This document shows, in pieces, positions 15,877 through 41,745 of a stretch of 64,000 nt of DNA (position 1 is its first letter; each line of letters starts with the position of its first letter). Source of the stretch: Chitinophagaceae bacterium (lineage in GTDB: Bacteria > Bacteroidota > Bacteroidia > Chitinophagales > Chitinophagaceae); contig JALHNJ010000002.1 of the NCBI GenBank assembly GCA_022843585.1, positions 248,001 to 312,000 of the forward strand. Reading direction: 5' to 3'. The notes beneath the pieces were generated by a model, which was not told the origin of the DNA, did not search any database, and was given only the letters and a program-made list of their open reading frames with translations. The position numbers and the translations under genes are program-made.

Positions 15877-17376
15877 TCAATCAATTTCCAAAAGCCGAAG
15901 ACTCTGCTGGCTTAAACGCTTGATATCTTCAATGGATTCCTTGATAAGTGCAAGAGGTTTGCTGAAGCCATATTTTGTAACAACAAGCTCGTTTGTGTTT
16001 ATGTCAACCTTCATTGCTGTATGCGTATTTGTGGTATACTCAATGAATCCATGTAACCTGTCAACTTCTAAAGTGCCCTTTTCTTTGTCGTGAAAATTCT
16101 CAAACTTGTGGATCAGGTCATCAACATTTATTTTTCCATCGATCGGAATAATAAGTTCGTCCATCCTGTTCGGGAAAATATCATCAAATTCAGTGGGAAG
16201 ATTATTCATGGCGACAAGGGGGTGAAGTTCGCGGCGGATTACAGCCAGGGAAGGATCATTACCATGCTGATCAACGCTCAGGTAAAACCGGAAATACTCG
16301 CATTCCACCCGGCCTCCTTCGCGGCTGCTGTCATAATTGATTTCAACATCTCTGAGTCCGAATATTTTCTTTGTACTGTCAACGATTTCAGCGATCTCAT
16401 TTCTGGAATCTTCCACAAATAAATCCTGGACGAACCGGCGGGTCGTCTGATTAACGAACTTCGGAACACTCCAGCCTTTACCTTTCGGTAATGAACGTTT
16501 GAGCTCGCTCTCCGATATTTTACGGAGGTGTATATCCCCCAGCCTGAATGTAAGTGAAGGAAGACTGTCATCTATGGGCTCATCCTCGATCTCCCGGATT
16601 GCAAATTCGTTTTTCGCGGCAATCTTGGCATAAGGAGTTTGACGGGAAAATTTTTCCTTTTGTTCGCGGATGAACTTTGGTATGGCGTGGCTTAAATAAT
16701 TCTGAAGCGAATTGCTGGTGATGAACTGGTCCTTTATGATCGCACCGGGAGCGTCTCCCGCCAATGCTTTTATAAGATGATACGTCCATACCCCATGCTG
16801 AATTACGGAGCTTGATGAAGATTTTTCTCCTGGTGAGCAGGATAAGTACATCGCATCATATTGACCTGTTTTTACAAATTCATCAAATTCTTTCTGGTCC
16901 ATGTCTGATATCACATCTCTTCCGTCTTTCAGTTGGTCAGTAAGAACGGTAGAACAGCAATCCATAAAGACCAGTGAACGCTGGCACCCGGATTTTTCTA
17001 GTGGATCAAATAATATATCTTTTAGTGAAACAGTTGTACCAGTCAGATTATAGGGATGCGAATCCCAGCAAGTTAACCGGTTATGTCCATCCTGGAAGAA
17101 ACCGTGTCCCGCATAGTAAAATATAAATTCATCTTCCTTGGTTAATTGCTGGATCTGGTAAGGCAGGTCGTTCTCCAGTGTGTTCTGAACAGCATCATTG
17201 TCTATCCAGTAAATGATGTCATCCTCCATATAATCAAAATGCTCAATCAGCATTTCCTTAAATGCTTTTGCATCATTACCGGCATATTGGACAGATGGTA
17301 TCTGAGGCTTGTTTCTATAGTCCTCGATAGCAATGATAACGGCCAGGCGTCTGGATGGAGGTGGTTGTGTTTCCAT
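15877..17376 (-). CDS. Caspase-like (peptidase C14) protein with unknown C-terminal region
   Basis: Residues 10-240 form a caspase-like fold: R-L-A-V-I-I-A-I-E-D-Y at the first strand, E-F-I-F-Y-Y-A-G-H91-G-F with the catalytic histidine, and L-V-F-M-D-C-C141-S-T with the catalytic cysteine. The remaining 260 residues carry no domain I know and probably sense or bind something. It is a soluble protein without signal peptide or membrane span. Bacterial caspase-like proteases act in several anti-phage systems, where cleavage of host proteins or of a partner toxin follows activation. It converges with the HEPN-like gene and is divergent from the DnaE-like gene across 94 bases. Protease activity is expected because both catalytic residues are present. 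Confidence 0.88.
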   Translation of the reverse strand: METQPPPSRRLAVIIAIEDYRNKPQIPSVQYAGNDAKAFKEMLIEHFDYMEDDIIYWIDNDAVQNTLENDLPYQIQQLTKEDEFIFYYAGHGFFQDGHNRLTCWDSHPYNLTGTTVSLKDILFDPLEKSGCQRSLVFMDCCSTVLTDQLKDGRDVISDMDQKEFDEFVKTGQYDAMYLSCSPGEKSSSSSVIQHGVWTYHLIKALAGDAPGAIIKDQFITSNSLQNYLSHAIPKFIREQKEKFSRQTPYAKIAAKNEFAIREIEDEPIDDSLPSLTFRLGDIHLRKISESELKRSLPKGKGWSVPKFVNQTTRRFVQDLFVEDSRNEIAEIVDSTKKIFGLRDVEINYDSSREGGRVECEYFRFYLSVDQHGNDPSLAVIRRELHPLVAMNNLPTEFDDIFPNRMDELIIPIDGKINVDDLIHKFENFHDKEKGTLEVDRLHGFIEYTTNTHTAMKVDINTNELVVTKYGFSKPLALIKESIEDIKRLSQQSLRLLEID

Positions 17377-21641: not shown

Positions 21642-22919
21642 ATGTTAAACGTCACCACGATGGAAAGAATTCACTTACTATACAAAAAAATAAAAGACGA
21701 CATTGAAGCAGAGATCAACTCACTTGATGAGCTCTATATAGCCAATACCGATACAAAAGAGTTCTTAAACTACTTGTGTGCTCATCGAATTATCACACCA
21801 GTTGAAAGGGACAATTCACTAGACATGCGTTCTGAATTTAAATCGCGAACCGATACGGACTTACCAAATGATTATAAAGCCTTTCAGAATTTGATAGCCA
21901 AGAAGAAAGTGCCTAAAATTGAAATTCTTTATATCGATATTCCTCTGAAACTATCTCCGAATAATAAAGTTCTATGCGAGTACGTCACATTTATAGATGA
22001 AGACAAATCAGTCAAATTGTTTGAAGATCGTATCATAATTAAAATGATAATAAGCAAACATTCTCAACAAAAAAACCCTGACGAAGTTGAGAAGGAAACA
22101 GAGAAGAAAAAAAGACAGGCATTCGAATGGATTAATCTTGCTCAACAAACAATTGCGATGCTGAATAGTCACTTAACCACAGATATAGAAGCTCAGATTG
22201 AAAAAATCAAATCATCTGTCCTGCTAAACCAGAAAAGGAAAGATGAAATCATTAAAAAGATAAATATTCCCCTTAAAAGAAAGGAGGATGAAGTAATCAA
22301 ACGAATAAATCTTGATAAATCTCCTCTCATTAGTCGTATCCTACCATCAGCTAAACAGAAAGAAGATTATGTCCTCGATAGACAAAAGCTGCTGGACATC
22401 ATTAGTGTAATTGACAACCAGGGACGCCAGTTTGAAAAAACACCGATGAGCTATAAAAGGTTAAATGAGGAGGATTTGCGAAATATTTTACTGGTAAATC
22501 TCAATGCCATATTTGAAGGAAAGGCAGTTGGCGAAGCTTTTTCCAATGTGGGTAAAACTGATATTACATTGAATATCGACAAAGGAAATATTTTGATTAT
22601 AGAATGTAAGGTGTGGTCAGGTCCCCAAAATCATTTAGCGGCCATCTCACAACTAATATCTTATCTTACATGGCGTCAAAATTTCGGTATTGTTATTAGT
22701 TTTTGCCGGATTAAAGATTTATCAGCCGTAATAAAAAACTTACCCGAAGAAATAAAATCTCATCCGACATATAGTAAACAAGGTGCTACTACAGATCCAA
22801 CCCACTTTTCAACTTTTCACCAATCACCCGCAGACAAAGAAAGGAATATAGAAATCCATCATGTATTCTACAATCTTTATACAGCAGATAAACAAAAAAA
22901 GGTACCTACTCAGGAATGA
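21642..22919 (+). CDS. Uncharacterised protein with C-terminal PD-(D/E)XK nuclease domain
   Basis: A 425-residue protein of no named family. The N-terminal 140 residues are unassigned. Residues 145-270 are highly charged and probably helical or coiled (E-K-E-T-E-K-K-K-R-Q, then two K-R-K-x-E/D-E-V/I-I-K repeats). The C-terminal part has the nuclease pattern V-G-K-T-D307-I-T-L, then I-L-I-I-E321-C-K323-V-W, with an upstream glutamate-rich helix. This is the PD-(D/E)XK core, and it is followed by I-S-Q-L-I-S-Y-L-T-W. It begins 45 bases after dinB on the same strand and converges with the Mrr-type gene (27-base gap). ATG at 21660 is an alternative start. Likely a DNA-cleaving defence effector, inferred from domain and context. 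Confidence 0.72.
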   Translation: MLNVTTMERIHLLYKKIKDDIEAEINSLDELYIANTDTKEFLNYLCAHRIITPVERDNSLDMRSEFKSRTDTDLPNDYKAFQNLIAKKKVPKIEILYIDIPLKLSPNNKVLCEYVTFIDEDKSVKLFEDRIIIKMIISKHSQQKNPDEVEKETEKKKRQAFEWINLAQQTIAMLNSHLTTDIEAQIEKIKSSVLLNQKRKDEIIKKINIPLKRKEDEVIKRINLDKSPLISRILPSAKQKEDYVLDRQKLLDIISVIDNQGRQFEKTPMSYKRLNEEDLRNILLVNLNAIFEGKAVGEAFSNVGKTDITLNIDKGNILIIECKVWSGPQNHLAAISQLISYLTWRQNFGIVISFCRIKDLSAVIKNLPEEIKSHPTYSKQGATTDPTHFSTFHQSPADKERNIEIHHVFYNLYTADKQKKVPTQE

Positions 22920-22945: not shown

Positions 22946-23797
22946 TCAATTTTCCATGATAAACCCATTCTCAGAAATACTAAATGATCTCTCTTCAAAA
23001 AGTGATTTCATGATTAACCAGACTTTGTCTACAACCGAAATAATATGATTGGAATTCGAATTGATCATATGCAATACTCCTGTAAAAACAATACTCTTGA
23101 TTTTAGCAGCAGGATAACCTCTTTTCTGTAGTAAACCTCCCCCGGCAATTTCATAACGCCTGGTAATGGTTTCACCGATTTTATTATGGTTGTGAAGGTC
23201 GTCATGAAATAGTTTGGTATAGTCAGTAAAAGGCTTCCGGCTTTCATCTGGCAGAATTATAGATGTGCTGTATATATTCGTTGTACCATCTACGGTTGTT
23301 CTGTTGTCAACATATTCGAAGGCAACGCCTGATATTTCAGGGCGACGTATAGTGATTGAGCTCGAAATCTGAATAGTAGCGATTTCAAATTGTCGTTCCT
23401 CTAGATCCTGAGCTGCCTCACCTATTTCCCTTAGTTCAACAATACCTATATTCTTATATTTAGCGAATTCGGCACCATCTTTTGTAAAACCGTTCTTTGA
23501 AACAATTACACCTTTTTCTATACCGGCATCTGCAATTATTTCAGCCACCTTCATTACTATGTCCTTATCAATTTTATCCTTCCAATACTTACATTCAATT
23601 GCAGTCCGATAAGAATGGATTCCATCAGAATGACTGGTTAGTATATCTATTTGATGATTGACTCCTGATTTACCTTGAACCCTGCAGCTGCTTCCGTAAC
23701 CCAATACCTTAACGCCCGACCTACTGCCTAAATTTTCGTAAATGTATTTTGTAATGGATTCGTAGGTTTTCCAGTCAAGGTCAGTCTTTAAAGGCAT
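22946..23797 (-). CDS. Mrr-like restriction endonuclease
   Basis: A 283-residue protein whose first 130 residues form an Mrr_cat-type nuclease: Q-I-D51-I-L-T, then T-A-I-E68-C-K70-Y-W-K, then G-V-I-V-S-K-N-G-F-T-K-D-G-A-E-F-A, a sequence order typical of type IV or Mrr-family restriction enzymes. The second half (about 140-283) is a separate beta-rich domain without known motifs, where Mrr would instead have a winged helix. It is the last gene in a minus-strand run with a 190-residue unknown and SRAP upstream (gaps of 29 and 21 bases). It should act on foreign or modified DNA; what modification it reads is unknown. Confidence 0.85.
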   Translation of the reverse strand: MPLKTDLDWKTYESITKYIYENLGSRSGVKVLGYGSSCRVQGKSGVNHQIDILTSHSDGIHSYRTAIECKYWKDKIDKDIVMKVAEIIADAGIEKGVIVSKNGFTKDGAEFAKYKNIGIVELREIGEAAQDLEERQFEIATIQISSSITIRRPEISGVAFEYVDNRTTVDGTTNIYSTSIILPDESRKPFTDYTKLFHDDLHNHNKIGETITRRYEIAGGGLLQKRGYPAAKIKSIVFTGVLHMINSNSNHIISVVDKVWLIMKSLFEERSFSISENGFIMEN

Positions 23798-25875: not shown

Positions 25876-26898
25876 ATGTTTGGAGAGATTTTTAAGATAC
25901 TTTCTGATGAACCGGAAAAGATAGAAAAGGCCGTATTACGGGCTATTAAGCTTGCTCTTACCATGTTGATCGCTGTACAGATTTATAAATGGGTTTTCGG
26001 ACCTTTTATCATTTTCCCATTAGACAGCTACGATGACTGGACTGATTTTTTTCTTAGTGGTAAAGTTTTCATTTGTCTCCTGTTTTATTTTATAAGTGAC
26101 TACTTGATCACACCATTGATTCATCTGTTAGCTTATGGCATCGCCATTCTCCTCACAAGGTTCAATGCCAATCCAACTACGGACGACTTTAGGCTTTTAC
26201 TAAAAACATTAAGAGTTGTAAATTATCAAGAAGCTAATGAAATCCCACAACCAGGCCGAAACATTGATCTTTTATATAAATTGTCGCAGGCTTTTGCAAA
26301 CGAAGACGCACGAAATGAAATAGATTCATTGAAAGACACCTACATAGGCAATGTCCTCAATCTGTATTCTCTATTTTGTCTGGTTTATTTTACGCTTTTT
26401 AGCTCCGAACTCAGGACACCAGCTTTGAATATTATTATCATAACAGTACTCGTTTTGGTCTTAATAATATATGCGGTGCTGCATGGCATATTGGATTACA
26501 TGTCAAAGCATCATCAGGAAATTATTACTGGCCTTTCTTTTATTAAAACAAATGCTGTAATAATGTCGATATTGGGTTCCTACGCAATATTCCCTGCGTG
26601 GGGTACTAAAGAAAACAGGCTTCACCGGGTGAAATTCTTTATCATTAATAACAAAGAATATGCAATTATCCCAGGTCTTAATGGAAGGAGAATACGCCCA
26701 GGAGAAATTGAAAAATTTATAGACAGAAGATCCAAAGAAGGGCGCATATTTCTACTGGTTATCGAAAAGGGTTTGATAGCTAACAGCCAGGAATTACTCT
26801 TGAAGTATTTTGATAGTTTATTATTAATTGAATTTAGTGACGAAAAGAATCTGAGAGACCAGCTTAAAAACACATTAGAAAGTTTATTGCCAAGGTAA
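25876..26898 (+). CDS. Uncharacterised membrane protein, first gene of a nuclease operon
   Basis: A 340-residue protein. Four to five transmembrane helices are visible: about 27-52 (L-A-L-T-M-L-I-A-V-Q-I), 66-98 (V-F-I-C-L-L-F-Y-F and L-L-A-Y-G-I-A-I-L-L), 163-180 (L-F-C-L-V-Y-F-T-L-F) and 188-206 (I-I-I-I-T-V-L-V-L-V-L-I-I-Y). A soluble C-terminal region of about 120 residues follows. That region alternates strand and helix (I-F-L-L-V-I-E-K-G-L-I, then S-L-L-L-I-E-F-S-D-E) and faintly recalls the second half of Mrr-type domains, but no catalytic D/E-x-K is seen. It leads a unit with a zinc ribbon gene and two nucleases (gaps of 35, 2 and 33 bases). Family and function are unknown; membrane sensor or anchor is my inference. 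Confidence 0.72.
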   Translation: MFGEIFKILSDEPEKIEKAVLRAIKLALTMLIAVQIYKWVFGPFIIFPLDSYDDWTDFFLSGKVFICLLFYFISDYLITPLIHLLAYGIAILLTRFNANPTTDDFRLLLKTLRVVNYQEANEIPQPGRNIDLLYKLSQAFANEDARNEIDSLKDTYIGNVLNLYSLFCLVYFTLFSSELRTPALNIIIITVLVLVLIIYAVLHGILDYMSKHHQEIITGLSFIKTNAVIMSILGSYAIFPAWGTKENRLHRVKFFIINNKEYAIIPGLNGRRIRPGEIEKFIDRRSKEGRIFLLVIEKGLIANSQELLLKYFDSLLLIEFSDEKNLRDQLKNTLESLLPR

Positions 26899-26933
26899 AT
26901 TTCCCCATATCACCAGAATTAACTTTGTACATT

Positions 26934-27155
26934 ATGCTTTTCGATCTGTCTAAATCATGGATTGCCATCGATTGCCCAAATTGTGGATATAGTCTCGATA
27001 TTCAGGTAAGAGATGTCAAGCTTGAAGAAACAGTTATTTGCAATAATTGTAAAACCAACATTCATCTGCAAGATGCAGATGCCAGTGCACACAATTCTGT
27101 TAGAGATATTAATAAAGGTATGAGCGACTTAGACGACCTCTTAAAATCATTTTAA
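26934..27155 (+). CDS. Small zinc-ribbon protein
   Basis: A 73-residue protein with two C-x-x-C knuckles: I-D-C-P-N-C-G-Y-S near residue 15 and V-I-C-N-N-C-K-T-N near residue 38, a treble-clef or zinc-ribbon arrangement. The tail is acidic and helical (D-I-N-K-G-M-S-D-L-D-D-L-L-K-S-F). ATG at 26934 is preferred over TTG at 26925. It is two bases upstream of the first PD-(D/E)XK gene, so the two are surely co-translated. It may bind nucleic acid or bridge the nucleases to the membrane protein; its role is unknown. Confidence 0.72.
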   Translation: MLFDLSKSWIAIDCPNCGYSLDIQVRDVKLEETVICNNCKTNIHLQDADASAHNSVRDINKGMSDLDDLLKSF

Positions 27156-27157
27156 TT

Positions 27158-28123
27158 ATGTACTACAGCCACAATCTTCGAAGTAATTTACAAGAATGGA
27201 GGAACCGATTATATAAATCCACCTACGAAAATATTAATAACAATTATCGCTTTTTTATTTCACGACTTGAAGAAACAGCGATAATTCAGGCAATTCTTCA
27301 GAATGCCCTCGACAATAATCCACTAAGTGATGAAGAGCTACAAACTTTTTATGATACATTAACGGACGGCGGCGATATGGGATATCGTGACGAGGCTGAT
27401 CAAGCTGCTTTTCTTTACCGCTTGCATAAAAAATTCAAGGCAGAGAACAGCGAAGGTAAAGCTCTGGCATTTACATTAGGCAGTGGACGGGAATTCAGCG
27501 ATCAACTTGATAATTTTCTGGATATCTATGTCCAACCGATTTGTACATACATACACGAGCAATTGGAAGAAAGCAATTCAACGCTTTTTCTCATTGAAAA
27601 GTATAAAAGAAGAATTGAGTGGTTTTACAGAACCGATTTAAAAACTAAATATGAGAACGCGGCTTCCAACTACGAAAAGATATTTGAAGATGATCTGCGG
27701 CTATTTTTATTCGACCAGGGCATAGATTATCCCTTTTCTACACCATCATCAGCATCAGGCAGAGCAGATATTGTAGGACTAATAGATACAAAAAACCCAT
27801 TAGTCCTGGAAATAAAAATCTATGACACAACTAAAGGATACCGAAAAAATAGAATATCGGAAGGGTTCGCTCAAACCGTTAAATACGCTAATGATTATAA
27901 TAAAAATGTTGGCTACCTGGTAGTTTTCAATCTCGATGATATACAAATAGAGATAGAATCTGGCGATGCAGATAACAATTTTCCTAACCGCATTGTTTTT
28001 AACAACAAAGTCTTCTACATTGTCATAATCAATCTTTACAATGATGCAACTGCCAGTAAAGCAGGTTCGTTAAAATATGAAATCATCACAAAAGAAGATT
28101 TAATAGCGGTGACGTCGCAATAA
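27158..28123 (+). CDS. PD-(D/E)XK nuclease-domain protein
   Basis: A 321-residue protein. Residues 1-190 are helical and unassigned. The C-terminal third has the restriction-like core: S-G-R-A-D204-I-V-G-L, then L-V-L-E218-I-K220-I-Y-D, followed by a helix with Q-T-V-K-Y-A-N-D-Y and a strand G-Y-L-V-V-F-N. The upstream helix N-Y-E-K-I-F-E-D-D-L-R supplies a likely first acidic residue. Such cores occur in defence nucleases where the helical region recognises a partner or trigger. It is flanked by the zinc-ribbon gene (2 bases) and a second, different PD-(D/E)XK protein (33 bases). Nuclease activity is inferred from intact motif residues. Confidence 0.75.
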   Translation: MYYSHNLRSNLQEWRNRLYKSTYENINNNYRFFISRLEETAIIQAILQNALDNNPLSDEELQTFYDTLTDGGDMGYRDEADQAAFLYRLHKKFKAENSEGKALAFTLGSGREFSDQLDNFLDIYVQPICTYIHEQLEESNSTLFLIEKYKRRIEWFYRTDLKTKYENAASNYEKIFEDDLRLFLFDQGIDYPFSTPSSASGRADIVGLIDTKNPLVLEIKIYDTTKGYRKNRISEGFAQTVKYANDYNKNVGYLVVFNLDDIQIEIESGDADNNFPNRIVFNNKVFYIVIINLYNDATASKAGSLKYEIITKEDLIAVTSQ

Positions 28124-28156
28124 TTGTTGCTCGTTTCCTTTAAAGTAAATGTTGCA

Positions 28157-29116
28157 ATGTCAAATGATGGAAAATATTTAGAAAGGCTAGTACAAATAAT
28201 TGAGCAATCTATTTTACCAGACTCGATTGTTGAGCATGATGTATGGCTACCCATACTTAACTCTCCTTCAGGGGAGAAAGCACAATGCGATATTGTTATT
28301 CGCACTGGAACAGAATCCAGGCAAACGGTAACAATAGTAGAAGTGCAGGATAGGAACAAACCTGTCGAAATAAACGATTTCAGGGGTTGGCTCACTAAAA
28401 TGACCGCAGTTGGAGCGCAGCATTTATACTGCGTATCAAGAAAAGATTTTCCCAAAAGTGTCAAGGAGCAGGCTACTCTAGGTGGCCATACCGTAAAATT
28501 GATTACAATCAGAGATCTCGATTCAGAATCCATACCGATCAATTTTTTCGAACTAACCTCTGTCTTTCATGATATTGATATTCCAGGCGTAAAATTGAAA
28601 CAAGTAATTATTGATCCGAATGAATGTGCCGCACTTGGACTAAATTTTGATCAGGTGAAAGTAAGAATCGATAATTTAAAATCAAACGATAGACTATTTT
28701 CAAACGACCGGATTGAACTAAAAGCCTTGTCTACTTTTTGTATTGAAAATACCCCAACAGACAAAGGCAATTATGGTACAAACCATCTTCGCCTCGGTTT
28801 TGACAGGTTCAAACCATTATTTCTTTATTTCAATGGGACATTCGTTAACATTCAGGTAATACTTGAATACTCATGGACTTTTAAAGAAGTTAGAATGATG
28901 CCTACTGTTCTTTCGTACGATCAAAATGAACACGGGGCCCTGGCATGGGTACTTGAACTTTTTTATCACGCTCCGAGAGGTCCGCTTTGGTGCAAGATGC
29001 CGGTGATAAAAAACAAAGACGGAACCTATGGATTGAGTGGGGTCTTACTAGAAATGCCTCAGGACACTGAGCTATTATTTAAATTAGAAAACATTAAGAA
29101 ACCATATGTCCCATAG
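28157..29116 (+). CDS. Second PD-(D/E)XK-like protein of the same operon
   Basis: A 319-residue protein from the ATG at 28157; a TTG at 28124 abutting the previous stop is less likely. An N-terminal nuclease-like core is visible: A-Q-C-D45-I-V-I-R, then V-T-I-V-E62-V-Q64-D-R, then a helix F-R-G-W-L-T-K-M and a strand H-L-Y-C-V-S-R-K-D-F, with E-x-Q in place of E-x-K as in some restriction enzymes. The C-terminal 200 residues are beta-rich and unassigned (for example F-F-E-L-T-S-V-F-H-D-I-D-I). This is unlike the preceding nuclease in domain order, so the two are not duplicates. It is the last gene of the operon; 50 bases on lies a broken yraN gene. Confidence 0.72.
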   Translation: MSNDGKYLERLVQIIEQSILPDSIVEHDVWLPILNSPSGEKAQCDIVIRTGTESRQTVTIVEVQDRNKPVEINDFRGWLTKMTAVGAQHLYCVSRKDFPKSVKEQATLGGHTVKLITIRDLDSESIPINFFELTSVFHDIDIPGVKLKQVIIDPNECAALGLNFDQVKVRIDNLKSNDRLFSNDRIELKALSTFCIENTPTDKGNYGTNHLRLGFDRFKPLFLYFNGTFVNIQVILEYSWTFKEVRMMPTVLSYDQNEHGALAWVLELFYHAPRGPLWCKMPVIKNKDGTYGLSGVLLEMPQDTELLFKLENIKKPYVP

Positions 29117-29168: not shown

Positions 29169-29504
29169 ATGAATCTTGATAAGAATGCTAAAGACTTGGC
29201 CGTATCATATTTCATACAACGTGCTTACATAATCCTCCACCGCAATTACCGCTTCTCGCGGTTCGAAATCGACATCATCGCCACCAAAGACGAAACCCTT
29301 CATTTTATCGAAGTGAAATCACTCAGCAATGATGCCGTAACAAATCCTGAAGTGAATGTACCATCAAAGAAATTTTAATCACTGAAAAAAGCCGGCAGTC
29401 ATTTCCTGTCACAGCAACCAACATACAAGCATGTGCAATTTGACGTGCTTTCTATTATAATGAAAAAAGACAAAGACCCTGAATTTCTTTTGATCGAAGA
29501 CGTT
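29169..29504 (+). pseudogene. yraN: Broken yraN (UPF0102) gene
   Basis: The frame starts as an ordinary YraN nuclease-fold protein (F-E-I-D-I-I-A, then H-F-I-E-V-K-S) but meets TAA at 29376-29378. The same frame continues past the stop with the rest of the family (Q-F-D-V-L-S-I-I, then D-P-E-F-L-L-I-E-D-V), so one nonsense change split the gene. After about 29504 homology ends and antisense AraC-like sequence begins. YraN is a core protein of unclear role, often beside comM, rnhB or methyltransferase genes. An intact copy may exist elsewhere. Confidence 0.82.
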
Positions 29505-31360: not shown

Positions 31361-31385
31361 ATCCCCTACCAAATTGACAGGGGAT
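31361..31385. promoter_or_regulatory. ATCCCCT/AGGGGAT inverted repeat in a divergent spacer
   Basis: Seven-base arms (31361-31367 and 31379-31385) 11 bases apart, in the spacer between the 93-residue gene and the primase gene. Operator-like spacing. It also argues that the primase does not start at the ATG at 31374, which lies in the loop. Confidence 0.4.
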
Positions 31386-31454
31386 ATAAAAGCACGAAAA
31401 GGAGTTAATACTTTTACAGCGTGTTTGCATTGTGTGGGGTTGAAAATAGTGTGT

Positions 31455-32327
31455 ATGAATATTGCAGCGGCGAAGAAGATTGACCTGGTGGAGTACCTGG
31501 CTTCCAAAGGTTATAAACCGGCCAAAATAAAAAGGGCTGACTACTGGTATTGCTCCCCGCTCCGGGAGGAAAAGACCGCTTCCTTTAAAGTGAACCGGCA
31601 GCAAAATGTCTGGTACGATCACGGGCTCGGTAAAGGCGGTAATTTTATTGACTTTGGAATTTTATTTCACCATTGCACGGTAAAAGAGCTGCTGGAAAAA
31701 CTAAACAGCAATTTTTCTTTTCACCAGCAACGGCTTATTCCTCAGCCGGGATTGCCTGAAGAATCCCTGATAAAAATCAATGCCGAAAAAAATCTCAGCT
31801 CCCTTTCTTTACTCAGGTATGTAAGACAGCGAAGGATAGCGGAGAGTATTGCCAGGAAATATTGCCGTGAAGTTATCTTTTCACTGCATGATAAAAAATA
31901 TACTGCGATAGGATTTAAGAACGATGAAGGGGGCTATGAACTGCGCAATCAATGGTTCAAAGGGAGCAGTTCACCGAAGGCTATTACGAGTATTGAAAAC
32001 CATTCAAAAGAGCTTGAAGTTTTTGAAGGCTTTTTTAATTTTTTATCCCACCAGACTATCCACCAGCATCAAACAGTTTCACCAACGAATATTATAGTGT
32101 TGAACTCCACTTCTTTTTTTGAAAGGAGCAGGGCGGTGATGGAGGCGCACGAAACGATCCGGTTATTTCTTGACCGGGATAAGACCGGGCAAAAATGCAC
32201 GGCGGAGGCTTTAGGCTGGAGCAACAAATACAAAGATGAAAGCAATTTATATAAGGGCTACAATGATTTGAATGAATGGCAGCAACAAATAGGCAAATCG
32301 ATAAAGAAGACATTAAAGCCGACATAA
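31455..32327 (+). CDS. CHC2 zinc-finger/Toprim primase-like protein
   Basis: A 290-residue DnaG-type primase fragment. The zinc-binding region Y-W-Y-C-S-P-L-R-E-E-K-T-A-S-F-K-V is the family's C-P-F-H-x-E-x-x-P-S-F equivalent, then G-G-N-F-I-D-F. The Toprim part is I-E-N-H-S-K-E-L-E-V-F-E-G-F-F-N-F-L and the D-R-D-K-T-G-Q metal motif near the end. Elements of this kind use such a primase to convert transferred single strands. ATG at 31455 is chosen because the longer frame begins in a palindrome and adds non-conserved residues. It starts the plus-strand unit leading to the mob genes. Confidence 0.9.
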   Translation: MNIAAAKKIDLVEYLASKGYKPAKIKRADYWYCSPLREEKTASFKVNRQQNVWYDHGLGKGGNFIDFGILFHHCTVKELLEKLNSNFSFHQQRLIPQPGLPEESLIKINAEKNLSSLSLLRYVRQRRIAESIARKYCREVIFSLHDKKYTAIGFKNDEGGYELRNQWFKGSSSPKAITSIENHSKELEVFEGFFNFLSHQTIHQHQTVSPTNIIVLNSTSFFERSRAVMEAHETIRLFLDRDKTGQKCTAEALGWSNKYKDESNLYKGYNDLNEWQQQIGKSIKKTLKPT

Positions 32328-32357
32328 CAAGGAGGCTTAATGCTCATCTTACAGCAT

Positions 32358-32395
32358 GGTAAAATGTACGTTTGTCGGACAAACGAAATTTTACC
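32358..32395. other. Candidate oriT palindrome
   Basis: Two nearly identical inverted arms: GGTAAAAT-GTA-CGTTTGTC and its complement GACAAACG-A-AATTTTACC around a single G. It stands 50 bases upstream of the mobC-like gene, the usual place of the transfer origin in Bacteroidota mobilizable elements, between the primase and mob genes. Nicking is not shown. Confidence 0.6.
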
Positions 32396-32444
32396 CTTTC
32401 ACTCCGGAGTCGTTTCGGGGAATTGAAAAAGATAATGTGAGGAT

Positions 32445-32837
32445 ATGAAACGTGAAAAAATAAACCTATCAAGGAAAGTAACCGTTCGTTTCAAACCGGA
32501 CGAATACAATAAAGTGAATATTTCCTTTAAAGCCACTACCAAGAAAAAGCTAAGCGAATACATCCGTTATGTGTTGCTGGAAAAACCGGTTACAGTTTAT
32601 ACAAGAGATCAATCTGTTGATCAATTAATGTCTGAATTAGTGTTGTTGCGAAATGAATTATCTGCCATCGGCAGCAACTTTAATCAGCTCGTAAAAAGAT
32701 TGCACACAGCAAGCCATTTCCAGGAAATAAAAGCACTCGCTTTACAGGCCGAAAACGATAAAGAAAAATTCTTGAATAAGGCAAATGAAATCAATTTAAA
32801 AATTGGTGAAATGTCGGGCAAATGGTTGCAAGAATAA
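32445..32837 (+). CDS. MobC-like relaxosome accessory protein
   Basis: A 130-residue protein with a ribbon-helix-helix-like start (K-V-T-V-R-F-K-P-D-E-Y-N-K-V) and the MobC hallmark L-L-R-N-E-L-S-A-I-G-S-N-F-N-Q-L-V-K-R-L. It binds the origin of transfer and assists the relaxase. The last 16 bases overlap the relaxase start. The candidate oriT is directly upstream. Confidence 0.88.
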   Translation: MKREKINLSRKVTVRFKPDEYNKVNISFKATTKKKLSEYIRYVLLEKPVTVYTRDQSVDQLMSELVLLRNELSAIGSNFNQLVKRLHTASHFQEIKALALQAENDKEKFLNKANEINLKIGEMSGKWLQE

Positions 32838-34099
32838 ATACAGGAAAAAGTATCAGCAAAGCACTTAATTATAACGAGAAAAAAGTGCAGCAAGGCCAGG
32901 CAGAAATTTTGTCAGCAAATAACTTTTTAAAAGATGCTGTCAAGATGAATTTTTATGAAAAGCTGACAACTTTTGAAAAACTTACTTCCCTTAATGAAAG
33001 AACAACTACGAATACATTGCATGTGTCGCTGAATTTCGATCCTTCGGAGAATCTTGACAACGAAAAGATGATTGCAATAGCCACTAGTTATATGAATCGA
33101 ATTGGTTTTGGCGACCAACCCTGTTTGGTCTACCGCCATTTTGATACGGGACATCCACATATACATATCGTCAGTACCAATATCCAACGGGATGGGAATC
33201 GTATCTCTATGCACAACATGGGGCGTAACCAATCTGAGGTTGCGAGAAAGGAAATCGAAATAGAGTTTGGACTGGTGAAAGCCGAAAGTAAACAATTGAC
33301 AGATGCATTGAAGCTATCGCCAGTCAATGCACAAAAAATCAATCAGGGGAAGCGTTCGACTAAAGCAGCTATTTCAAATATTCTTGGCATTGTCATACCG
33401 CAATACAAATACAGTTCGCTGCCTGAATTGAATGCAGTGCTTAAACTATACAATGTTACAGCCGACAGGTGTGGCGAAGATTCGCATACTTATAAACACA
33501 ATGGCTTATTGTTCCGGGTGCTGGATGAAAAGGGAAATAAAATTGGAACGCCTATTAAAGCAAGCCTGTTTTATATGAAGCCCACCCTTAAAAATCTGGA
33601 GCAACGTTTTGATGACAATGAGCTGCTGAAACAACCATTGGCCAAACGGTTGCGGACAGTAATTGATTTTGTCTTGTTGAAAAAATCAGGTTTGAGCCTT
33701 GAGCAGCTGATAAATGAATTGAATAAGGAAAAGATAAGCGTGGTACTCCGGCAAAATAAAGAAGGTACGATCTATGGAATTACCTATGTGGATCACAAGA
33801 CCAAATGCGTGTTCAATGGAAGTGATCTCGGCAAATCATACAGTGCGAAGATGATGCTTGAAAGGGTAAGTGCGAATAGTCCGGTGGTCGCTCCCTCATT
33901 GGCGGATGAAAAGAAAAAGTCGCTGTCATCCGAAAATTCATCCGGGGATGCGACTATTCTTTCTCCGCAGCCTTCCTACGCTGATAGTGGGGCAACAGCA
34001 ATACTGGAGGTGGTAACAGGAACGGCAAGCGGGCCAGATTATATTCCCTTTCAGCTACGAAAAAAGAAACGAAAAAAAAGACAGCAGTTAAAACGATAA
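32822..34099 (+). CDS. Relaxase (MobA/MOBP-type mobilization nuclease)
   Basis: A 425-residue relaxase. The N-terminal motif S-I-S-K-A-L-N-Y17-N-E-K-K-V carries the probable nicking tyrosine, and the metal site is R-H106-F-D-T-G-H111-P-H113-I-H115-I-V. Together these are the standard signature of Bacteroidota mobilization relaxases. It nicks oriT and leads the strand to the coupling protein. The C-terminus (about 330-425) is charged and ends in a K-K-R-K-K-R-Q run. It overlaps mobC and ends four bases before the coupling-protein gene, so mobC-relaxase-coupling form one operon. Confidence 0.94.
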   Translation: MVARINTGKSISKALNYNEKKVQQGQAEILSANNFLKDAVKMNFYEKLTTFEKLTSLNERTTTNTLHVSLNFDPSENLDNEKMIAIATSYMNRIGFGDQPCLVYRHFDTGHPHIHIVSTNIQRDGNRISMHNMGRNQSEVARKEIEIEFGLVKAESKQLTDALKLSPVNAQKINQGKRSTKAAISNILGIVIPQYKYSSLPELNAVLKLYNVTADRCGEDSHTYKHNGLLFRVLDEKGNKIGTPIKASLFYMKPTLKNLEQRFDDNELLKQPLAKRLRTVIDFVLLKKSGLSLEQLINELNKEKISVVLRQNKEGTIYGITYVDHKTKCVFNGSDLGKSYSAKMMLERVSANSPVVAPSLADEKKKSLSSENSSGDATILSPQPSYADSGATAILEVVTGTASGPDYIPFQLRKKKRKKRQQLKR

Positions 34100-34103
34100 A
34101 CAC

Positions 34104-36089
34104 ATGAGTACCGGTGAAAACGAACAAGGGCTAAGAAAGATAACGGACATGACAAGGCTGATGAGTATAGTATTACTCGGCTTACATTTTTATTACTATT
34201 GTTACCAGGCTTTTGAAGGTTGGGAACTTACAGCTGATTTATCCGACCGGCTGTTAACCAATATTCAAAACACTGGTTTATTCAGCTCGTTCAATACTGC
34301 AAAATTGATAGCATTGGCCTTATTGATTATATCACTATTAGGAGCAAAAGGTAAAAAAGATGAACACATCAATCATCGGATTGCTTTTGCCTACATCATT
34401 ACAGGATTGCTCATATATTTCTTGAGCTATTTCAGCTTGCATTTTCCGGCAGCACCTGAAACCCGTGCAATTACTTATATGCTTATAACAGCAACAGGTT
34501 ATATACTCGTATTAACCGGCGGTAATCTAATATCAAGAGTCATCCGGCAAAAACTCAATAACAAGGACATATTCAATAAAGAAAATGAAACCTTCCCGCA
34601 GGAAGAACGATTGCTGCAAAATGAGTATTCTATTAACCTGCCTGCACAATATCAATTGAAAGGAAAAATTCGTAATAGTTGGATCAATATTATCAATCCC
34701 TTTCGTTCCCTGTTAGTGCTGGGTTCACCCGGTGCTGGTAAATCCTATTTTGTGATCCGTCATGTGATCACACAGCATATCAAAAAAGGGTTCTCGATGT
34801 TTGTGTATGACTTTAAGTTTGATGATTTGTCAGTCATTACCTACAACCATTATTTAAAATGCCGTCACCACTACCCTGTTCCTCCCTCCTTTTATGTGAT
34901 CAATTTTGAAGACCTGTCCAGAACCCATCGCTGCAATCCCCTGGATAAAGAAAACATGCTGGATATTACGGACGCTTCAGAATCGGCCCGCACCATTTTA
35001 ATGGGATTGAACCGGGAATGGATCAAACGCCAGGGCGATTTTTTTGTGGAGTCGCCAATTAATTTTTTGACTGCCATTATCTGGTTTCTTCGCCGCTATA
35101 ATGATGGGGAGTTTTGTACCCTTCCACATGTGATTGAATTGATGCAGGTTGACTATGATAAGTTATTTACAATCCTGAAAACCGAAAAAGAAATCGAAGC
35201 ATTGATCAATCCATTTGTATCGGCGTACATGAATGATGTGATGGAACAACTCGAAGGACAAATAGCAGCAGCTAAAGTGGCGATGGCCCGCTTGTCATCA
35301 CCGCAGCTTTATTATGTGTTATCGGGTAATGATTTTACACTGGATATTAATAACCCGGATGAACCGAAAATTGTTTGCATGGGAAATAATCCGCAGAAGA
35401 TCCAGGTTTATGGTGCAGTGCTATCGTTGTATATATCCCGGCTAATAAAAATGGTGAATAAAAAAGGGAAGATGAAAAGCAGTCTGGTCTTCGATGAATT
35501 CCCAACTGTTTATCTCAACAACATGGATAGCCTGATTGCAACAGCAAGAAGTAATAAAGTAGCCACTACGTTAGGCGTGCAGGACTTCAGCCAGTTAAAA
35601 AAAGATTATGGCAAAGACCAGGCAGATGTTATCATGAATATCACTGGTAATATTATTTCGGGGCAAGTCACTGGTGAAACGGCCAAACAATTATCGGAAC
35701 GGGTCGGAAAAATTATGCAGGACCGAACAAGTTTATCTATCAACCGGAATGATACTTCCATCAGTAAATCAAAACAGCTTGATTCAGCGGTTCCCCCATC
35801 CAAAATATCAACATTAAGTTCAGGAGAATTTGTAGGCATGGTAGCAGATGACCCGGATAATAAAATTGATTTGAAAATATTTCATAGTTCTATCATAAAC
35901 AATCATGAGGCTCTTAAAAAAGAGCAACAGAGTTATAAACCAGTACCGGTTGTCCGACAAGTGACTCCTTCCATTGTTCAGGTAAATTATGAACAGATCA
36001 AACAGGAGGTGGAGGATTTGGTAAACGCAGAGATGGAGCGGATATTAAATGATCCTGGGATGGAAGGAACAGTTCTAAAAAAGAGCTAA
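34104..36089 (+). CDS. VirD4/TraG-type coupling protein
   Basis: An inner-membrane ATPase of 661 residues linking relaxosome to a secretion channel. The N-terminus has four hydrophobic segments (about 18-34, 66-80, 92-112, 123-140), then Walker A G-S-P-G-A-G-K-S (207-214) and Walker B L-V-F-D-E-F-P-T-V-Y-L. T-T-L-G-V-Q-D-F-S-Q-L follows, as expected for the family. Its presence is unusual for a small mobilizable element, since many use the helper's coupling protein. There are no other type IV secretion genes in the window, so it must plug into an external apparatus. It is the last gene of the mob operon. Confidence 0.93.
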   Translation: MSTGENEQGLRKITDMTRLMSIVLLGLHFYYYCYQAFEGWELTADLSDRLLTNIQNTGLFSSFNTAKLIALALLIISLLGAKGKKDEHINHRIAFAYIITGLLIYFLSYFSLHFPAAPETRAITYMLITATGYILVLTGGNLISRVIRQKLNNKDIFNKENETFPQEERLLQNEYSINLPAQYQLKGKIRNSWINIINPFRSLLVLGSPGAGKSYFVIRHVITQHIKKGFSMFVYDFKFDDLSVITYNHYLKCRHHYPVPPSFYVINFEDLSRTHRCNPLDKENMLDITDASESARTILMGLNREWIKRQGDFFVESPINFLTAIIWFLRRYNDGEFCTLPHVIELMQVDYDKLFTILKTEKEIEALINPFVSAYMNDVMEQLEGQIAAAKVAMARLSSPQLYYVLSGNDFTLDINNPDEPKIVCMGNNPQKIQVYGAVLSLYISRLIKMVNKKGKMKSSLVFDEFPTVYLNNMDSLIATARSNKVATTLGVQDFSQLKKDYGKDQADVIMNITGNIISGQVTGETAKQLSERVGKIMQDRTSLSINRNDTSISKSKQLDSAVPPSKISTLSSGEFVGMVADDPDNKIDLKIFHSSIINNHEALKKEQQSYKPVPVVRQVTPSIVQVNYEQIKQEVEDLVNAEMERILNDPGMEGTVLKKS

Positions 36090-36182
36090 TTATTGCTAAA
36101 TCACTGGCAACCAGTATTCTCCAAAGTCCGCCTGTTGATTAGTGGTGTTCAATAATGTCGGCTCAAGTGGTTATCTTTCAAA

Positions 36183-36215
36183 TTATTAGATTAAAATTGC
36201 GAGAAAATCTAATAA
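36183..36215. promoter_or_regulatory. Inverted repeat before the restriction-modification gene
   Basis: Perfect 10-base arms TTATTAGATT (36183-36192) and AATCTAATAA (36206-36215), 13 bases apart, ending 31 bases before the methyltransferase start. It is typical in size and place for an operator or autoregulatory site of a restriction cassette. No controller gene is seen next to it. Confidence 0.55.
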
Positions 36216-36246
36216 CAATAGACTACTTTTACTAAAATACTTAGTA

Positions 36247-39200
36247 TTGAATGCTTCGTTAAAATATGGTTTAGAACAACTTGAAATGATTGACAGCAAT
36301 GGTCTATCAACAGGTTTAGTTGAAGTAAAAAAGCTCGATAGTCTCGATTTGACAAAGCTCTCTGTTGATGAAATTATTGCTATTGAAAACGCACTGACAT
36401 ATGGCGTTCAGTATGTCTATTTTCGTAGATTTAAAGACCGTGCCTCTATTCCACAAGTTTATATATACGATTACACCTCTGCTCCAATCAATAGTGACGA
36501 TCTAATTACACTCCATCAGCGGTTATATAGTTCGGGACATGTCCCAATGTTTTTTGTTTTTACAAACCAGGATGTCAGGATTTTTAATTGTTACGAAAAA
36601 CCTGCAAAAGGAAATCGTTTAATTTATAAACCCCTTACAATTCTTAGGCTGGCCAGTCAGGTTTCTAACCTATTTAATGAGCAAGATTCTAAACTTGCAG
36701 AAGCATTTAGAGCTTTTTCAGGCCGTTCTTTTGATAACGGATCTTTTTGGGAAAGCTCTCCATTTAGCAAAGATTTTCAGTTTGCTAATAGTGCTTATGA
36801 AAAACTATTAACCGAGCTGAAACAATCCTTAAATGATATTATTGAAAAAAAGATATTGCCTGCTGCAATTGCTAGGAAAATCATGGTTATATCTATTCTT
36901 ATCAAATATCTAGAAGAAAGAACTGATGAACATCAAAATTCAGTATTCCCTAAAGCAGGTCAAGAAAGAACTTCCGTAATAAACGGTAAACGAAAAAAAG
37001 TAAAATTCGACAAAGACTTCTTTGACCAGTTTGCAAAAGGAGCCGAGTGTTTTACTGATGTATTAAAAAAGAGGGGAGCAGGTTTAAAATTATTAAAATA
37101 TTTAGCTACTCACTTTAATGGAGGTATTTTTAAGCTAAGCGAAAAAGAAAAAGCTTCCCTTGAAAAAACTGATTTAACTCGCTTTGGACTTTTTTTAGAA
37201 GGAAATTTAGAGGGGGTTCAATATGTTTTTTGGCGACTTTATTCATTCAATGATCTCCCAGTTGAACTAATTAGCAATATCTACGAAGAATTTTTGGAAA
37301 AAAGTCCGGGAGTTGTTTATACTCCGCCTTACCTGGTAAATTTCTTGTTAGATGAAACAATGCCCCTTAAAGAAGATAGAATTGATTATAAAGTATTAGA
37401 TCCCGCATGCGGTTCGGGAGTTTTTCTTGTAGGGGCATATAGAAGACTTATTTATAGATGGCGAAAAATTAATGGGTGGAAACGACCAAAACTTACTCTT
37501 TTAAAAAAGATTCTTAAGGAAAATATTTATGGCGCTGATAAAGATGCTGAAGCGGTAAACCTTACAGTTTTCAGTTTAAGTCTTGCGTTATGTGATGAAT
37601 TGACACCTCTGGAGATTTGGGAAAATCTTCAATTTGATGATTTGACAGAAGAAAATATTTTTGCCCAAGATTTTTTTGAATTAATTCTTAATCATAAATT
37701 CTCAAAAGGGTATTTTGACCTTGTTATTGGCAACCCTCCCTTCGAAGCTAAATTAACTCCTTCTGCAATTATCATTGAATCCCAAAAGCAAAAGGAAAGA
37801 GCAAATTCAATTGTACGAAAAAATAATACAGGAAACGCAATTAAGCTACCTGACAATCAAATATCTCTTTTGTTTCTTGAGCAGTCGATAGCTTTATGCA
37901 AACCCGGGCAGCTTGTTTGTTTAATACAACCTTCTGGTCCGTTTCTTTATAACAACACCTCTTTTCAATTCAGAAAATATTTGATGGAAAGGTTCAATAT
38001 TCCACAAATTATAGATTTCACTCACATAAGCAGGGTATTGTTTGGGAAAAATGGGGATGTTGCCACAGCCGCAATATTTATTAGAAATGAAAAAGCAACT
38101 AGCAAAGGTTTGTTACACTTAACTATTAGAAGAAGCAAACCCAATAAAGAGAAAATTTATTTTGAGCTCGATAGTTATGACTTTCATTATGTTCCTAAGA
38201 AACTTGCAATTGACGATCCTTTAATTTGGAAATCAAATCTGCTTACAGGTAGCAGAAGTCATCAAATAATATCAAGATTATCTAGTTTAAAAACTATTGG
38301 TAAGTTTCTCAAAGAGCAAAAAGACAATGGGTGGGTTGTAAGCGAAGGATTTACTGCAGCTACAAAAAAAGATCTTGCAACATTGAAAAAATTAAATGAC
38401 CGTAAAAAACTCTCTGCTGAAAATAAAACTGAATACATTACTTTTCTGAAAAAATTATCAGCACCACATATAACAGGAAACCGGTTTTTGCCTACTAATG
38501 CGTTTCTTGAAAAGGGCATTACAAATTCCAAGATTGTTCCAACATTAGATTTAAAATATTTCCACAGCAAAGGTGATCCTAAAATTTATGAACCTCCACA
38601 TCTATTAATCAAAGAAATCGCCGGAGATAATGTAATTCCTATAGAATTTCGTAATGATTACCTGTCATTCAGAAATGAGATAATCGGCATTCATGCTCCG
38701 AAAAAACGAATATCTGATCTCAAGAACTTTTTTCAGCAGTTTCAAGAGCATCAACAACTATTTCTTTTCTATTTGGCTGGCGCAAGCGGTAGATACATGG
38801 TTAATAAAGCAACAGCTTTATTAAAGGATGATATTATGAATCTACCTTATCCTGGGCAAGATGAAATAAACTCATTGGAACTTGATGACAATGAAAAAAT
38901 CGTGGTAGAAGATGTTTTAAATCATCTAATAGAATTTAGAAGAAACGGGGAAAAATCTACAATTGCAATGCAAGATGCAAATAGCGCAGACTTAGAGGCG
39001 TTTGCATCTACTTTTTGTAATGTTTTAAACACTGTGTATTCAACTTTAAAAACACATACGCCTTTCGAAACAAGTTCTTATATATGCTTTCCTTTTTATT
39101 TTAAAGACAAACCAGAAATAAAATTTGAGAACACTGAAACTGCTGAAGAGCAAATTGATAAACTTGTGAAAAAGGTGGCCGGCGTAAGCTTACGGCTAAC

Positions 39201-39333
39201 TCGTGTAGTGAGACTTTATGAAGGAAATGTAATATATATTATTAAGCCTAAAAAACTCAGATACTGGCTTCGTTCAGTTGCTTTACGAGATGCTGATGAA
39301 ACTTTTTCTGATCTAAGAAAACAAGGATTTTAA
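36247..39333 (+). CDS. Adenine-specific DNA methyltransferase of an Eco57I/type IIG-like system
   Basis: A 1028-residue protein. The SAM-binding motif is D-P-A-C-G-S-G-V-F-L beginning at residue 385 and the catalytic N-P-P-F motif is at 496-499, as for N6-adenine methyltransferases of the gamma class. Residues 1-130 have the beta-rich start seen in type IIG-like enzymes, the stretch to 340 is helical, and residues from about 650 form the target recognition and C-terminal region. No clear nuclease motif was found in the N-terminus, so cutting may depend on the next gene. TTG at 36247 is used because no in-frame ATG lies upstream; ATG at 36286 is the alternative. A-T rich compared with the mob genes, which suggests a separate origin. 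Confidence 0.88.
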   Translation: MNASLKYGLEQLEMIDSNGLSTGLVEVKKLDSLDLTKLSVDEIIAIENALTYGVQYVYFRRFKDRASIPQVYIYDYTSAPINSDDLITLHQRLYSSGHVPMFFVFTNQDVRIFNCYEKPAKGNRLIYKPLTILRLASQVSNLFNEQDSKLAEAFRAFSGRSFDNGSFWESSPFSKDFQFANSAYEKLLTELKQSLNDIIEKKILPAAIARKIMVISILIKYLEERTDEHQNSVFPKAGQERTSVINGKRKKVKFDKDFFDQFAKGAECFTDVLKKRGAGLKLLKYLATHFNGGIFKLSEKEKASLEKTDLTRFGLFLEGNLEGVQYVFWRLYSFNDLPVELISNIYEEFLEKSPGVVYTPPYLVNFLLDETMPLKEDRIDYKVLDPACGSGVFLVGAYRRLIYRWRKINGWKRPKLTLLKKILKENIYGADKDAEAVNLTVFSLSLALCDELTPLEIWENLQFDDLTEENIFAQDFFELILNHKFSKGYFDLVIGNPPFEAKLTPSAIIIESQKQKERANSIVRKNNTGNAIKLPDNQISLLFLEQSIALCKPGQLVCLIQPSGPFLYNNTSFQFRKYLMERFNIPQIIDFTHISRVLFGKNGDVATAAIFIRNEKATSKGLLHLTIRRSKPNKEKIYFELDSYDFHYVPKKLAIDDPLIWKSNLLTGSRSHQIISRLSSLKTIGKFLKEQKDNGWVVSEGFTAATKKDLATLKKLNDRKKLSAENKTEYITFLKKLSAPHITGNRFLPTNAFLEKGITNSKIVPTLDLKYFHSKGDPKIYEPPHLLIKEIAGDNVIPIEFRNDYLSFRNEIIGIHAPKKRISDLKNFFQQFQEHQQLFLFYLAGASGRYMVNKATALLKDDIMNLPYPGQDEINSLELDDNEKIVVEDVLNHLIEFRRNGEKSTIAMQDANSADLEAFASTFCNVLNTVYSTLKTHTPFETSSYICFPFYFKDKPEIKFENTETAEEQIDKLVKKVAGVSLRLTRVVRLYEGNVIYIIKPKKLRYWLRSVALRDADETFSDLRKQGF

Positions 39334-40055
39334 TGCTTTCAGATTCACTAATACATAAAAGTAGTGGTTTAATATCCTCAGGTATTGAGCATGAGGAATC
39401 GTTGAAAGCAGTGATCCTATTCTTAAGAAATCACTGCAAAATATTTGCAACATTGAATAAGGGAGCGACAGATTTGAACGAAAAGGGATTAAGTCAAAAG
39501 CTTTGCATTCTTTTAAATAGAAAAGCAAAGAGCTATCCTTTTTTCTTTCATCCCGAATTTATGGAAGATGTGAAAAGCGGTGTTAGCCCTCAAATAGATA
39601 TTGGTACTATTTCACAAGATGAAAAGATTGAGATTTCTGACCGAGAATATAATGAAGAAGACAGTTTCTTTTCTTTGGAGGCAAAAAGACTTCCTACTCC
39701 CGGTACAAACAGAGAAAAAGAATATGTAACCGGCCATAACACCGTTTGTGGTGCAATGGAAAGGTTTAAGAAAGGAGTACATGGCTCACGTTTAAAATAT
39801 GCAGCTATTATCGGATATGTTCAAGCCAAAACTTTTGAACATTGGTTTCTGGAAATCAATACCTGGATAGCGGAATTAGCATCTAATAAAGATCAACCTC
39901 TTTGGACAACTAATGATTCAATTAAAAAAATACCTAATGGTAATGATGACTTTTTAATTGAGTTATCTTCCGAAAACTCAAGGCATCTTGATGGAATTGA
40001 AAAAGATAGAATAAGAATTTTTCACTTTTGGATAAACTTGGAAGAAAAAGAATAA
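39333..40055 (+). CDS. Partner protein of the methyltransferase, PD-(D/E)XK-like
   Basis: A 240-residue protein starting at the last base of the methyltransferase stop (TAATG), so expression is coupled. The pattern P-Q-I-D-I-G-T-I, then F-F-S-L-E-A-K-R-L fits a restriction-type PD-(D/E)XK active site with D, E and K in order; then come G-H-N-T-V-C-G-A-M-E-R-F and Y-A-A-I-I-G-Y-V-Q. No family name is recognised. As the only other gene of the cassette it is the best candidate for the nuclease subunit. The integrase gene converges with it after 19 bases. Confidence 0.75.
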   Translation: MLSDSLIHKSSGLISSGIEHEESLKAVILFLRNHCKIFATLNKGATDLNEKGLSQKLCILLNRKAKSYPFFFHPEFMEDVKSGVSPQIDIGTISQDEKIEISDREYNEEDSFFSLEAKRLPTPGTNREKEYVTGHNTVCGAMERFKKGVHGSRLKYAAIIGYVQAKTFEHWFLEINTWIAELASNKDQPLWTTNDSIKKIPNGNDDFLIELSSENSRHLDGIEKDRIRIFHFWINLEEKE

Positions 40056-40074
40056 AAAAACATCGTTTCAAAGT

Positions 40075-41175: not shown

Positions 41176-41177
41176 AA

Positions 41178-41531
41178 TTAAGTCAGTTTGAAAAGTTCAT
41201 TAATTGCTGTTCGAGGTATCCGGGTATTACGACCGACTTTACCGGCTTTTATTTGACCATTATCGATAAGTCGATAAATAGTCCAGCGGCTTGCATTAAT
41301 TAACTGGCAGACTTCTCCGATGGTGAGAAATTCCTTTTGAGATAGAGCCGGGTCGTAAATCGCCTTTTCTATTTCAGATTCAATAGCGACTTCCATCTTT
41401 TCACACCTCTTTCTTTTCTTGTAAGCTTTCTTAGCACAGTTATCGGAGCAGAACTGGGTAACAGTAGTCTTTGCAGTGAATCGTTCACCGCAAAACTGAC
41501 AAGTCTTTTGAAGTCTGATATGACTGCTCAT
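41178..41531 (-). CDS. Excisionase-like helix-turn-helix protein with a zinc knuckle
   Basis: A 117-residue protein in two parts. Residues 10-40 have C-Q-F-C-G and F-C-S-D-N-C, a four-cysteine zinc knuckle. Residues 68-115 are an HTH_17/excisionase-type helix-turn-helix (L-T-I-G-E-V-C-Q-L-I-N-A-S-R-W-T-I-Y-R-L-I). Such proteins act as recombination directionality factors or repress the integrase. It starts at the edge of the repeat array (41531) and is read into the integrase gene. Confidence 0.88.
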   Translation of the reverse strand: MSSHIRLQKTCQFCGERFTAKTTVTQFCSDNCAKKAYKKRKRCEKMEVAIESEIEKAIYDPALSQKEFLTIGEVCQLINASRWTIYRLIDNGQIKAGKVGRNTRIPRTAINELFKLT

Positions 41532-41590
41532 TGTTGCCTGTTGTAGCTGGTTGTTGCAGAATGTAGCTTGATGTAGCTGTATGTAGCATC
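41531..41590. repeat. Six 10-base phased repeats upstream of the excisionase gene
   Basis: Contiguous decamers beginning at 41531, 41541, 41551, 41561, 41571 and 41581: TTGTTGCCTG, TTGTAGCTGG, TTGTTGCAGA, ATGTAGCTTG, ATGTAGCTGT, ATGTAGCATC, consensus WTGTWGC. The 10-base period places each unit on the same helix face, as for cooperative protein binding. Confidence 0.85.
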
Positions 41591-41598
41591 ATCTCGCT

Positions 41599-41680: not shown

Positions 41681-41745
41681 AAAAGAGGAAGAATAATTTG
41701 TTAAAACAAAGAAAAACAATCAGTTAACAAACAAAAGAAAACAAG

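Follow-up and report, generated by a model that had tools for sequence, protein, structure and literature searches.

Shedu (SduA, DUF4263) is a single-gene system whose protein carries a PD-(D/E)XK domain behind an N-terminal part that varies, and within the PD-(D/E)XK superfamily QxxxY motifs are typical of the RecB/Cas4-type nucleases. A two-gene arrangement is found in PDC-M14, a candidate in the PADLOC collection made up of PDC-M14A and PDC-M14B; genes with the PDC prefix are termed 'phage defence candidate' in PMC11514479, and our literature search found no paper naming PDC-M14 or PDC-M14B. Here we analyse a locus from a Chitinophagaceae bacterium (assembly GCA_022843585.1, genome of 4.49 Mb) that can be compared with each of these. 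It lies in a 64,000-nucleotide stretch of contig JALHNJ010000002.1 (positions 248,001 to 312,000 of the forward strand, hereafter the window, whose numbering is used throughout) and holds four plus-strand open reading frames (ORFs), which we call A (gene 1, a membrane protein), B (gene 2, a zinc ribbon), C (gene 3, a nuclease) and D (gene 4, a second nuclease). A first-pass annotation had proposed all four as one candidate undescribed defence system. Our comparisons replace that guess with a smaller unit of two genes, about 1.2 kb and a defined set of residues: B and C form a tightly coupled module, paired across loci, spread over five phyla and with an intact nuclease signature, which has apparently moved between phyla.

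B and C form a tightly coupled two-gene module

B (26934-27155, plus strand) encodes a zinc ribbon of 73 residues with the double motif CPxC...CxxC that had been read from the sequence (C14, C17, C36 and C39) and a predicted-helical C-terminal tail. Two bases downstream, C (27158-28123, plus strand) encodes 321 residues comprising a helical N-terminal domain (1-110), a long helix (113-167) and a PD-(D/E)XK-type C-terminal domain. C was searched for in other Bacteroidota, plasmid records, viral contigs and a species-genome collection, giving relatives in 5 plasmid records, 1 viral contig and 22 loci of the species-genome collection in addition to those in other Bacteroidota. Our counts refer to 23 full-length C genes beyond the window, 19 from the species-genome collection and 4 from plasmids. 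Left out were partial copies of C (L037, L040, L044 and L013), L045/L008, where the B-C DNA is identical to that of L025, and the loci of G044, G078, G171 and G804, whose contigs are, judged by their length, those of L036, L034, L043 and L033; the C genes of L034/L035 and of L029/L030 are near-identical, yet were counted separately.

In the stretches of 9.5 to 19 kb examined around these genes, B lies directly upstream of C at 19 of the 23 loci, as judged by a B profile and by tblastn with both methods agreeing, while neither A nor D is present at any of them (0/23 each). The B stop codon and the C start are separated by -4 to +9 bases in every one of the 20 pairs, the window included, and the four cysteines are kept in all 20 aligned B sequences (window included). 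The distance matrices of B and C correlate with a Spearman coefficient of 0.855, a value reached in 0 of 2000 permutations. B relatives without C were not met: viral contigs held one relative, on a contig matching Larkinella, phages none, and plasmids only that of Polaromonas. The zinc protein, which looks like an obligate partner upstream of C, does belong with the first of the two nucleases, as had been supposed, and the earlier statement that no named system fits survives for B-C in the libraries we searched.

The best relatives outside the window have E-values of 3e-27 for B and 1e-115 for C (the latter against candidate stretches), compared with 1.6e-32 for A and 7.5e-58 for D. Neither B nor C, nor A or D, has a match above the curated cut-offs of Pfam and NCBIfam (for B, among the best 25 of 26 Pfam rows). 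In PHROGs, B has only weak matches of zinc type and D a single one at 0.23, and the PADLOC profiles match B weakly in three cases and C in part (PDC-M14B, E 8.4e-8), with no match at all for A or D.

C was found in five phyla and not in phages; some of its copies sit on plasmids or next to integrases. Among 395 genomes of the phylum, its own included, C occurs in 3, D in 3 and A in 2; among 176 genomes of the family, again counting its own, the C profile finds 2 and A occurs in 3. In the tree the nearest relatives of the window's C agree with an origin in Bacteroidota; a Spirochaetota copy of C from a metagenome bin is nested among those of Bacteroidota, and the plasmid-borne copy from Polaromonas groups with one from Ignavibacteriota, which carries a long-branch warning. 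This patchy spread fits horizontal transfer.

Protein C carries the PD-(D/E)XK signature

The catalytic residues assigned in the first-pass annotation (D204, E218 and K220 in C; D45, E62 and Q64 in D) are indeed found at these positions. Across the 24 aligned C sequences the order E173...D204...E/D218-x-K220...Q239xxxY243 is present without exception; E154, E173, D204, K220, Q239 and Y243 are invariant, and position 218 is glutamate in 19 sequences and aspartate in 5. An AlphaFold2 model built from 18 sequences (pLDDT 80.8, pTM 0.57) has helices over residues 1 to about 110, at 113-167 and at 172-186, a strand at 217-223, a helix at 230-246, a strand at 251-258 and further strands beyond, and this modelled order fits a PD-(D/E)XK core with QxxxY. 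C would accordingly resemble the RecB/Cas4-like branch in its residue signature and in its predicted helix-strand order, and differs from it by an N-terminal helical domain of its own and by the zinc-ribbon partner. With Shedu it has the layout in common, an N-terminal part and then a PD-(D/E)XK domain, but Shedu is one gene whereas C is accompanied by B, and DUF4263 gave no match to C at E up to 1, nor, at E up to 0.5, is it one of the 18 families listed when 18 C members were searched.

The N-terminal half of C matches a phage defence candidate

Like B-C, PDC-M14 consists of two genes, and residues 13-145 of C match positions 17-146 of the 267 positions of PDC-M14B, a profile that also matches 4 of 9 C relatives. 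When it was run at E up to 0.1 against 8 of the genomes or records behind the loci, 6 gave a match: in four of the eight on the C gene and in one register (L024, 1.2e-6; L032, 1.3e-4; L009 and L010, about 0.002-0.004), for L043 and L023 elsewhere in the genome, and for L042 and L031 nowhere. Since some control genomes also respond at E 0.001, weak matches of this kind are unspecific by themselves; at 1e-5 Methanosarcina acetivorans is the only control to do so. Positions 137-255 of the profile match (E 7.1e-11) the tail of a Spirochaetota protein, L059, which has a hydrophobic stretch at its end. This part of PDC-M14B thus matches a tail of another kind and not the PD-(D/E)XK part of C, and to judge from these alignments the two seem to have the front half in common and to diverge behind it.

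Because the match covers just the N-terminal half of C and not its full length, we rejected membership of B-C in PDC-M14. PDC-M14A (152 positions) does not match B of the window at E up to 1 and gives one weak match among 7 B proteins (0.0012), with an unrelated zinc ORF reaching 0.0058; its match in G451 was rejected as a B relative, as that ORF lies elsewhere and is unrelated to B. The PADLOC profile was also used to look for a true PDC-M14B gene in 148 genomes of Bacteroidota, which returned the window's own C only, in 198 genomes from the phylum to which G450 belongs, with none at 1e-5, and in 50 from that of G451, which returned the C of G451 itself and the tail-bearing L059 only.

The tail with the hydrophobic end is common to the Spirochaetota protein (L059:1459-2130, minus strand), to plasmid proteins (L061-L065) and to the back half of PDC-M14B. 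The plasmid proteins, which look AbiTii-like, had neither the N-terminal domain of C nor B in the 5 records examined out of 37 that matched (best hit 0.0071, in another region).

If C and PDC-M14B truly have this N-terminal domain in common, a single sensing scheme based on a zinc ribbon would be coupled to killing domains of different kinds. A possible, though still doubtful, extension is that the zinc ribbon and the helical N-terminal domain of C make up one immune front end whose effectors can be exchanged, here a PD-(D/E)XK nuclease and in PDC-M14 an effector with a hydrophobic tail. In that case B-C would represent the nuclease branch of a modular defence family of two genes, so far without a name, in at least five phyla.

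Genomic context and probable function of B-C

We place at about even chances the reading of B-C as a mobile nuclease module of two genes that is probably directed against phages or plasmids, with B as its recognition or control subunit. The defence role is what we infer from the match of the N-terminal domain of C to a candidate-defence profile in PADLOC, together with the defence genes that adjoin B-C at some loci. In such a mechanism B would bind C, most likely through the C-terminal helix of B and the helical N-terminal domain of C, the zinc ribbon would act as the recognition or control element, and the complex, once it encountered some feature of incoming phage or plasmid nucleic acid, would let the PD-(D/E)XK core of C cut it. 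As we saw no methyltransferase recur beside B-C, protection of the host itself would probably depend on activity gated by B or on recognising something that is non-self, and not on a dedicated modification gene.

The neighbours were surveyed as 113 ORFs listed around 20 B-C loci, and they differ between loci. With PADLOC, the matches listed for these ORFs (the best 25 of 168 families) include Lamassu, type IIG, OLD, GajA/GajB and PDC profiles. Across the loci B is the sole shared family to stand out among the neighbours listed, and no methyltransferase family recurs among them. Protein-by-protein tests covered the neighbours of 8 of the 20 loci, hand-picked as promising, and confirmed defence neighbours at four: LmuB and a Cap4-type nuclease at L025, ABC-3C CTD2 at L026, AbiH at L031, and an MmeI-type and an OLD/GajA-like gene at L032, where the MmeI-type gene lies downstream and does not recur at other B-C loci. 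DUF4062, DUF4238 and ThiF neighbours at L024, L034 and L036 are little informative. The defence setting proposed for the locus is thus found at some B-C loci, which adjoin known defence genes.

Several observations count against a defence module built in this way. Confirmed defence neighbours at 4 of 20 loci are a count and not a measure of enrichment over random genes, and by our own reading several B-C loci are surrounded by host-like genes only. The fold assignment of C rests on motif and order, because the model is poor in the loop 195-211 that holds D204, a Foldseek search of the model against the Protein Data Bank (PDB) returned 0 matches at E <=0.001 (the EcoT38I restriction enzyme is listed at 0.56, without significance), and no Pfam nuclease family is above cut-off in 18 C members, the best being PDDEXK_3 at 0.076 in one. 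Shared host descent alone can yield part of the correlation between the B and C distances. Finally, B is undetected beside 4 of the 23 full-length C genes, those of two plasmids, L011 (Kitasatospora) and L012 (Streptomyces canus), and of L039 and L041, both from Flavobacteriaceae, and all catalytic residues of C are intact there despite the undetected B.

These four loci bear equally on a different explanation, in which B-C is a toxin-antitoxin pair, the small upstream B restraining the nuclease C and the pair stabilising mobile elements, with any defence secondary. The size of B and its position, overlapping C or nearly so, would suit such a pair, as would the plasmid and mobile-element locations and the absence of a recurring methyltransferase, but a full-length, intact toxin would then persist without detectable antitoxin at L011, L012, L039 and L041, B being present at just 19 of 23 loci. 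We regard the explanation as rather unlikely; it is weakened by these four genes and not removed, since a B encoded elsewhere or diverged would rescue it.

Mobility genes raise a further alternative to the defence module, namely that B-C is a DNA-processing nuclease serving integrative elements or recombination and has no part in immunity. Integrase, relaxase or primase genes lie near B-C in L024, L027 and L023, and QxxxY motifs such as that of C are typical of RecB/Cas4-type enzymes. No mobility gene recurs beside B-C, however, and several loci show none nearby, which leaves this alternative unlikely. In L027 (Chitinophaga barathri) B-C is found <2 kb from an integrase, adjoining a primase gene and beside mnmE, and L023 carries, about 4-8 kb from B-C, relatives of the relaxase and the coupling protein found in the window.

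The L027 element, with integrase and primase beside mnmE and B-C inside it, spans L027:4099-13305. The window has a mobile element of its own at 31374-43125, with primase, relaxase, coupling protein and integrase beside mnmE and tonB/exb-like genes beyond, and mnmE is possibly an integration hot spot common to the window and L027; no direct repeat of at least 13 bases bounding the mobile element at mnmE was found. At 36247-39333, inside the window's element, lies an Eco57I/N6-type methylase gene that is likely restriction cargo.

A and D are best read as independent neighbours

The four plus-strand ORFs are separated by 35, 2 and 33 bases, just as first described. A (25876-26898, plus strand, 340 residues) is a membrane protein and D (28157-29116, plus strand, 319 residues from its ATG) a second nuclease-like protein with D45 and E62-x-Q64; both stand outside the conserved module. 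The open frame of D also permits a TTG at 28124; the ATG at 28157, with which the start of its homolog agrees, was used for gap and length.

The four or five membrane helices and soluble tail ascribed to A correspond to hydrophobic clusters (Kyte-Doolittle, threshold 1.4) at about 16-49, 55-96, 156-175 and 176-211, a weak further one at 216-234, and a soluble tail after it. A has two relatives, L020 (23% identical) and L057 (25%), with four hydrophobic clusters in all three proteins. The first (L020:7279-8304) is located between a SIR2-like gene (PADLOC Aga_SIR2, 6e-14; Pfam SIR2_2 just under cut-off) and an ORF of 1243 residues, and the second (L057:8407-9339) between genes with HsdR and HsdM domains, in a type I restriction operon. 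A appears to represent a rare family of membrane proteins settling in defence operons of unlike kinds. The only clear relative of D is L019 (35% identical, with D45, E62 and Q64 kept), near an integrase-bearing element; a second, L016, is weak (E 2.7e-5). A and D had no relatives in the viral scans or in plasmids, phages not being searched for either.

If a membrane sensor A controlled the nucleases C and D through the zinc protein B, as the first-pass annotation had modelled it, the four genes would be expected to recur as one system. Their common strand and short gaps in the window would be in keeping with this, as would the defence operons in which A's relatives also sit. The recurrence fails, however, as A and D are each absent from all 23 other C loci, where B is present at 19, and both turn up elsewhere without B-C and without one another. 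With A and D missing there and kept in other company, the model of a sensor steering two nucleases is unsupported, and we consider a four-gene defence system very improbable. The GC content is 36-38% at 26-29 kb of the window against 43-46% at 17-21 kb, and our best reading is that B-C shares a low-GC island with A and D, two genes that are independent of it.

A Mrr-type restriction endonuclease (Mrr_cat, 3.3e-11) is encoded in the same low-GC stretch on the minus strand (22946-23797). D has no BLASTP similarity to this protein, so that a kinship of D with Mrr is a reading of the motif only, and a single-sequence structure prediction of D (pLDDT 33) was unusable.

Other features of the window

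In the Bacteroidota the -7 promoter consensus is TAnnTTTG. The octamer TAACTTTG (26920..26927, plus strand), upstream of B, fits it and is a weak candidate for a promoter of B-C's own; such an octamer occurs within 120 bases upstream of B at 4 of 16 other loci, and shuffled sequences gave a mean of 0.99 and a maximum of 4.

The recombination scar reported beside the four genes is real insofar as 29169-29378 is a remnant of UPF0102 (yraN). The translation that follows, to 30042, reads as a remnant of the comM C-terminus, indicating a scar of deletion or recombination. Five genes upstream of A, the gene at 21642-22919 gives a near full-length match to the PADLOC candidate PDC-S54 (E 1.7e-69) and has no Pfam family. 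Further upstream, 15877-17376 encodes a caspase-like protein, nearest to caspase_w_EACC1 in NCBIfam (7.2e-17, below its cut-off) and to Peptidase_C14 in Pfam (4.9e-11).

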